Shown piece by piece: positions 46,861 to 54,995 of a DNA stretch of 64,000 bases. The notes beneath the pieces were generated by a model, which was not told the DNA's origin, made no database searches, and saw only the letters and a program-made list of their open reading frames with translations. The DNA lies in assembly GCF_900103535.1 (NCBI RefSeq), contig NZ_FNHQ01000003.1, positions 1 to 64,000 of the forward strand, in the 5' to 3' direction. Positions within the stretch are counted from its first letter, which is position 1, and every line of letters starts with the position of its first letter. The DNA comes from Megasphaera paucivorans (GTDB taxonomy: Bacteria; Bacillota; Negativicutes; Veillonellales; Megasphaeraceae). A program made the position numbers and the translations under genes.

Positions 46861-48144
46861 TCAGCGTAAGTCTTTAATAGCCGCTAAAATGGGCGGTACA
46901 ATTTGTTTTTTACGGCTCATTACATTAGGAAGATACACTTCTTTATCAAGGATATCCTTGGCAAACGACTTATGGATAACATCTTCAAAATTACCCGCAA
47001 AAATAAGATTTGTCGATTCATCAATAATACTGGTAATCATTAATAAGGATGCCGCATAATCAGCTCCTGTACGCATTTTTTCCAATGCATTCAGCAAGAC
47101 TTCTTTTTGATCAAGCAAGTCTTTCGTGTCCATAACCTGAACTTGAGATATAGAAATAACTTGGTCTTTTTCCGAAAATTCCTTCATATCATTATGGGCA
47201 ATTTCGTCTGGTGATAAATCAGACACATTCGCACCGGCTTTAAGCATGCTCAAACCATACTGCTGTATATCCACTCCGGCAATTGCCGCAAGTTTTTCAC
47301 AAGCAGCTTTATCTTCATCCGTGCATGTAGGAGAACGGAACAACACTGTATCAGAAATAATCGCAGACAACAGCAAGCCCGCTATATCTTTAGGGATTTC
47401 CTTGTGATACAACTCATATAGCTGTGTTACAATAGTACTAGTACAGCCGACTGGCTTAAAAAGGACAAAAATGGGACCATCTGTAGCAATACCACCGCCA
47501 ATACGGTGATGATCAATGTTTTCAATTACTTCGGCTTCATCAATGCCATCAATAATTTGTTTCTTTTCATTATGATCAACAAGAATTACTTGTTGTTTTT
47601 CCGTATGTTCAATGCATGCCGTACAAATTAATCCATAATATTTGCCTTCTTTTATAACAACATACGTCCCATCTGATTTTACATCATGAGCAAAGTCCGT
47701 GGTTTTATAAAAAATTTCAGGATCATGAACCAGTTCTTTAATCGTCGTCAATTCCTGCCCAAGAAGATTTTTGATAAATTCATCGGCAAAACTCGCTTTA
47801 TCAATGATACCAACAAACTTGCCATTATCCACGACCGGGGCAAATTCGAGAAGATTAACAGAAAACCACTTAGCCGCATCTTTCAAACTGGAGCTCAAAG
47901 ATAATGCTGCAATCGTTGTATCTGCTGCATCGGCAACTGTAATATAAAAATTTTTCACTAGCGGCTGGGGCGCAACCTTAAAATAATTCAATGCAAATTC
48001 AGTTTCCTTGTTTATTTCACCGGCACGAATAGCCACCGCATCTACATTCATCAGTTGTTTCAATTTCGCATATGCAATGGAAGAACAGATAGAATCTGTA
48101 TCCGGGCTCTTATGGCCTGTAACAAAAATATGTTTTTCTGCCAA
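46861..48144 (-). CDS. ppaC: Manganese-dependent (family II) inorganic pyrophosphatase with CBS insert
   Basis: About 427 residues; hydrolyses pyrophosphate. The DHH domain is split: GHKSPDTDSICSS at the start, then IIDGIDEAEVIENIDHHRIGG and SDTVLFRSPT; the DHHA2 end has SRKKQIVPP. About 120 residues (roughly 65-185) are inserted and look like a CBS pair (DAAKWFSVNLLEFAPVVD, FVGIIDKASFADEFI; then TYVVIKEGKYYGLI). CBS-type enzymes are adenine-nucleotide controlled; the usual DRTGG domain between the CBS halves is absent. GTG 48153 is possible but GAGG spacing favours TTG at 48144. Confidence 0.88.
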   Translation of the reverse strand: MAEKHIFVTGHKSPDTDSICSSIAYAKLKQLMNVDAVAIRAGEINKETEFALNYFKVAPQPLVKNFYITVADAADTTIAALSLSSSLKDAAKWFSVNLLEFAPVVDNGKFVGIIDKASFADEFIKNLLGQELTTIKELVHDPEIFYKTTDFAHDVKSDGTYVVIKEGKYYGLICTACIEHTEKQQVILVDHNEKKQIIDGIDEAEVIENIDHHRIGGGIATDGPIFVLFKPVGCTSTIVTQLYELYHKEIPKDIAGLLLSAIISDTVLFRSPTCTDEDKAACEKLAAIAGVDIQQYGLSMLKAGANVSDLSPDEIAHNDMKEFSEKDQVISISQVQVMDTKDLLDQKEVLLNALEKMRTGADYAASLLMITSIIDESTNLIFAGNFEDVIHKSFAKDILDKEVYLPNVMSRKKQIVPPILAAIKDLR

Positions 48145-48198
48145 TGTACTCACCTCATATTAAAATTAGTTAATGGTTAAATATATACTCTAGTGACT

Positions 48199-48227
48199 AT
48201 TATAACATAGAGGTCTATCCTATTCAA
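48199..48227 (-). promoter_or_regulatory. Promoter of ppaC
   Basis: TTGAAT (48222-48227), 17-base spacer, TATAAT (48199-48204) on the minus strand. Confidence 0.65.
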
Positions 48228-48251: not shown

Positions 48252-48312
48252 AATCGAGTAGGAGGTCACCCATTGGGACTTTCATCCGTTAGACTGCGTT
48301 CATACCGGGCAC
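48252..48312 (-). mobile_element. Internally deleted group IIC intron relic
   Basis: The minus strand begins GTGCCCGGTATGAACGCAGT, then CTAACGGATGAAAGTCC, like the 5' end of bacterial group IIC introns, and ends GGGTGACCTCCTACTCGATT, like their 3' end (domain VI and splice site). Everything between (most of domain I to V and the maturase gene) is missing. It starts directly after the T tract of the rplS terminator, the normal IIC insertion place. It cannot splice as it stands. Confidence 0.75.
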
Positions 48313-48350
48313 AAAAAAAAACAAGAGTTGGAATAATCCAACTCTTGTTT
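48313..48350 (-). terminator. Terminator of rplS
   Basis: Perfect stem AAACAAGAGTTGGA / TCCAACTCTTGTTT with a four-base loop and nine T on the minus strand. Confidence 0.95.
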
Positions 48351-54906: not shown

Positions 54907-54995
54907 GGAGCGGTATCGAAGTGGTCATAACGGGGCTGACTCGAAATCAGTTGATCCGAAAGGGTCCGTGGGTTCGAATCCCACCCGCTCCGCCA
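54907..54995 (+). tRNA. tRNA-Ser (anticodon CGA)
   Basis: 89 bases with an encoded CCA end. Acceptor stem GGAGCGG/CCGCTCC, discriminator G, long variable arm typical of serine tRNAs, T arm GTGGGTTCGAATCCCAC. The anticodon loop CTCGAAA gives CGA, which reads UCG. AT-rich, mobile-type DNA follows directly. Confidence 0.97.

Follow-up and report, generated by a model that had tools for sequence, protein, structure and literature searches.

A 60-nt genomic fossil of a group IIC intron behind the rplS terminator of Megasphaera paucivorans

The 64,000-nt stretch of Megasphaera paucivorans DNA that was analyzed here (the window) contains, at 48253-48312 on the minus strand, two pieces of a group IIC intron joined directly to each other, 38 nt from the 5' end and 22 nt from the 3' end. 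This remnant is a dead fossil and not an element that still works. Most probably (roughly 93%), it derives from a longer intron of this class that landed behind the rplS terminator and later suffered an internal deletion, after which the scar drifted neutrally.

Read from 48312 to 48252, the minus strand gives GTGCCCGGTATGAACGCAGTCTAACGGATGAAAGTCCC, then AATGGGTGACCTCCTACTCGAT, and then a T. An earlier note, made from the sequence alone, described these 61 bp as a group IIC intron relic that keeps both ends but no interior. Its identity is confirmed, as both halves match longer group IIC introns. Of the length claimed, 60 nt hold, while the 61st base, the T at 48252, is flanking DNA, judging from aligned longer introns. 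These introns end in ...CTACTCGAT and are followed by a variable base; because the T of CGAT is the last base they have in common, the remnant is 60 nt long.

The 5' half (48275-48312, minus strand) represents the first 38 nt of the intron, and the intron alignments place it at consensus positions 1-40, covering hairpins 1 and 2 of domain I. It carries the group IIC 5' terminus (GTGCGCCCGGCATGG...AAAGTCC), which aligns over 38 nt with few substitutions and with a 2-nt deletion in GTGCGCCC relative to the consensus. It matches intron 5' ends of the sister genome, the one genome from the same genus, at 85-92% identity, including 36 nt at 92% (E 1.8e-8). A 20-nt motif of the 5' end recurs neither elsewhere in the window, with up to three mismatches allowed, nor in shuffled sequence, with 0 expected. 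Both hairpins covary among the intact introns compared. As read off the alignment, two of the five pairs in hairpin 1 and one pair in hairpin 2 are broken in the remnant, as expected of a sequence that is not under selection.

The 3' half (48253-48274, minus strand) comprises the last 22 nt of the intron, which according to the same alignments are part of the domain VI loop, the 3' strand of domain VI and the tail. The group IIC 3' terminus (...CCTACTCGAT) is present, and 23 nt are identical to the 3' ends of two other intron copies of the host, C52:68724 and C31:16945, both of which retain domain VI and have domain V-like sequence upstream. In the remnant, the domain VI stem is incomplete with its 3' strand alone left, and the catalytic domain V is absent according to both Rfam and direct reading.

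The two halves meet at 48274-48275 (GTCCC/AATGGG, minus strand). On the left the intron breaks off at consensus position 40, one base before the second hairpin of domain I is complete, and on the right it resumes within the domain VI loop, which supports the earlier proposal of an internal deletion from domain I to domain VI. When the junction is compared with the parents, neither flanking parent base matches across it, and thus no microhomology to known relatives is visible. The remnant has lost domains II-V along with the exon-binding sites and the reverse transcriptase gene and, judged by its sequence, is therefore expected neither to splice nor to move. The Rfam group II check suggested in the earlier note gave nothing convincing at the site even at a relaxed threshold, which is expected if domain V and the stretches under the D1-D4 models are missing.

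The remnant lies between rplS, encoding ribosomal protein L19 (48364-48708, minus strand; 88-95% amino acid identity to Megasphaera-group homologues), and ppaC, encoding a manganese-dependent inorganic pyrophosphatase according to its protein sequence and relatives (46861-48153, minus strand). The intrinsic terminator of rplS (48319-48350, minus strand) has a 14-bp stem, is followed by a T tract at 48313-48318, and is also found in relatives. The remnant starts at the first base past this T tract. Class C introns are known to insert behind terminators (PMC3522654; PMC8919778; PMC4424553), and the remnant sits directly behind one just as group IIC introns do, so that the type of insertion target proposed earlier is borne out. 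The likely ppaC promoter, TTGAAT-17-TATAAT (48199-48227, minus strand), has 10/12 consensus matches and an extended -10, and a TATAAT-like box is also found in most of the relatives' rplS-ppaC spacers. As this promoter is downstream of the remnant, the insertion lies between terminator and promoter. Because the remnant precedes the ppaC promoter, no function is indicated for it. In several relatives of the Megasphaera group, rplS and a terminator are followed directly by the ppaC promoter region, i.e., the site is empty and lacks the 60 nt. In the sister genome, one contig ends within rplS and the rplS-ppaC spacer is not on its contigs; ppaC has no match in that assembly.

Longer introns with the same two ends, for which the earlier note proposed to search, were found in the same genus, the same genome and the same class. 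Group IIC introns of ~1.9 kb in other families of the class share both ends, starting like GTGCGCCCGGCATGGGCGCAGTCTAACGGGTGAAAGTCCC and finishing like GGGTAGCCTCCTACTCGAT, and most of them are located behind terminators. In the sister genome, the introns on contigs C12 (709 nt) and C26 (722 nt) have both ends in common with the remnant, and the C12 intron matches Rfam RF02001 (group-II-D1D4-3) with 94 bits. The host itself has a 666-nt intron (C43:60431-61096) with both ends, in which the protein gene is found in pieces only.

Sister-genome elements on C26 (L030 924-1646) and C74 (L146 1501 onward) are rearranged, with the IIC 5' end joined ~70 nt in, at an identical point, to a partner that reads like a different reverse transcriptase (DMWR...FERYADDAIIHC). 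They sit behind two different terminators, and this element seems to have spread after rearrangement.

Further group IIC remains are found in the host genome. At C31:43455 (minus strand), intron position ~40 runs straight into the reverse transcriptase frame, ~36-40 nt of an intron 5' end are left at C59:2204 and 27 nt at C22:6416, and C59:16760 is a 3' end only. The 5' remnants at C31:43455 and C59:2204 break at consensus ~36-41, near the 5' break of the remnant in the window, and these breaks are too few to call a hotspot. RF02001 (D1-D4-3) has no match at E<=1e-6 in the host genome. An intact group IIC reverse transcriptase or maturase was found neither in cis nor elsewhere in the host genome, which is a draft of 2.91 Mb in 76 contigs from which an intact donor could be missing. 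The sole intact reverse transcriptase found is on host contig C26, in a group II intron of another class. This intron (L036) matches RF02012 and has a second domain V ~0.8 kb downstream. Group IIC introns thus seem to have been active in the host lineage at one time and to have decayed since.

A full 61-nt match occurs only once in the 2.91 Mb genome, at the window copy, and the further 61-bp copies behind terminators that the earlier note proposed to look for were not found. BLAST or exact-pattern searches found no copy in 60 near relatives and none in plasmids or phages, and viral contigs had no exact match to the junction. Among 398 genomes of the phylum, the window gave the only paired-end match at E<=1e-10. 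R1, a sequence model built on the fused ends, was run on 380 Negativicutes genomes and matched in 101 of them, nearly always at 5' ends; among the matches listed, the window copy alone spans both halves. When 35 genomes, mostly with weak R1 matches, were searched again, a second paired-end element was detected in a genome of a different family (G362). A second model (R2), with scores of up to 23.4 bits for single ends and of 32 bits or more for the two paired ends, recovered exactly these two elements over the 380 genomes. As both were in its training set, R2 informs on the absence of other cases and is not independent support.

The G362 element (C71:3716-3789, minus strand; L200) is 74 nt long and also lies behind a terminator, with a pyruvate:ferredoxin oxidoreductase-like gene upstream and a malic enzyme-like gene downstream, as named from reading of the translations. 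Its junction leads from position ~25-31 into the end of domain V, followed by the whole of domain VI, and parents of this type share GGTGGTG at the break, giving a microhomology of 6-7 bp (GTGGTG). The two remnants point to independent deletions, because families, sites and junctions differ.

In the favored course of events, terminator-directed retrohoming of the usual kind would have placed a longer group IIC intron behind rplS. An internal deletion would later have taken everything from consensus position 40 to the domain VI loop. The loss would amount to ~0.6 kb if the parent no longer had a reverse transcriptase gene and to ~1.8 kb if it still had one, and the 60-nt scar would have drifted unselected afterwards. 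We infer the deletion itself, its occurrence after insertion and not by a jump during reverse transcription, and the neutrality of the scar. The missing microhomology at the junction and the missing rplS-ppaC spacer on the sister contigs count against the deletion. An intron that was already shortened when it inserted, the enzyme having jumped in the course of target-primed reverse transcription from the loop of domain VI to where hairpin 2 of domain I ends, would be the same kind of intron remnant and would differ from the favored explanation in timing alone. A zero-homology junction at structural landmarks would fit such a jump, as would the break at consensus ~40 into the reverse transcriptase frame at C31:43455. 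However, these cases are very few, the microhomology junction in G362 is typical of slippage deletion, and the other fragments in the host genome break variously, as ordinary decay would give. We therefore regard a jump at insertion as rather unlikely in this case. That internal deletions of group IIC introns recur through such jumps at fixed points, namely where hairpin 2 of domain I ends and in the loop of domain VI, is more doubtful still; if true, near-empty terminus-only insertions would be a regular by-product of retrohoming.

The remaining alternatives are far less probable. A draft assembly might have joined two contig ends inside a multi-copy intron, and contigs of other genomes do often end inside these introns. 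Still, the site lies mid-contig (134.8 kb), its two sides do not overlap at the junction, both pieces fall short of the usual assembly overlap, and the genome yielded no intact group IIC intron in multiple copies, so that an artefact is very improbable. The earlier note also considered a small non-autonomous element that a group II maturase from elsewhere would mobilize in trans. The remnant does keep both termini and the terminator target site, and the rearranged sister-genome element, with one junction behind two terminators, suggests that introns with altered interiors may have spread there. However, the remnant lacks domain V and the exon-binding loops, and no intact group IIC maturase was found in the host; the single copy, the lack of copies in near relatives and mobile DNA, and the different junction of the only other paired-end element in the class make an element of its own exceedingly unlikely. 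We give just as little credence to a regulatory leader or small RNA of rplS/ppaC that merely resembles intron ends. The position between the two genes is what would suggest it, but the sequence follows the rplS terminator and precedes the likely ppaC promoter, the fold of the 61 nt does not surpass that of shuffles (z 0.61), and each half matches the ends of genuine introns. A leader would predict conservation at the locus in other species, and a search for it was negative. The relatives' spacers lack the element; the earlier note would have taken the same bases in the rplS/ppaC leader of distant species as refuting the relic.

The remnant is thus an extreme but ordinary product of retroelement decay. 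It shares the 5' terminus, the 3' terminus and the target site with group IIC introns, but lacks domains II-V, the exon-binding sites and the reverse transcriptase, and measures ~60 nt compared to ~1.9 kb. Group II intron fragments have been catalogued in Enterobacteriales, with matches <100 bp discarded (PMC3522654). Like the remnant, those fragments are inactive past insertions, often with no intact copy in the genome; in contrast to them, the remnant keeps both termini, and being below the 100-bp cut-off it would not have been counted there. ORF-less group II introns have likewise lost the protein gene internally but keep the ribozyme (PMC4424553), which the remnant has lost as well. The group III introns of Euglena chloroplasts, at ~100 nt and sometimes with domain I and VI motifs alone (PMC4424553), resemble it in content; however, they are spliced introns of chloroplast genes, and nothing suggests splicing of the remnant. 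A search of open-licence papers with a few word combinations found no description of terminus-only scars. Our results indicate that group II intron insertions can shrink to ~60 nt with both termini kept, and that such scars fall under the cut-off of at least one published census. The two-ended model separates them from ordinary intron ends (two in 380 genomes), and could be used to estimate how often introns behind terminators are lost. On the evidence at hand, the remnant has no consequence for the host, and its interest is mainly that of a limiting case.

In the sister genome, a raiA RNA (RF03072, 188 bits) is found near a group IIC 5' end (L031 1810-2015, minus strand). The sole Rfam match at gathering level in the window is a tRNA gene at 54907-54992 on the plus strand.
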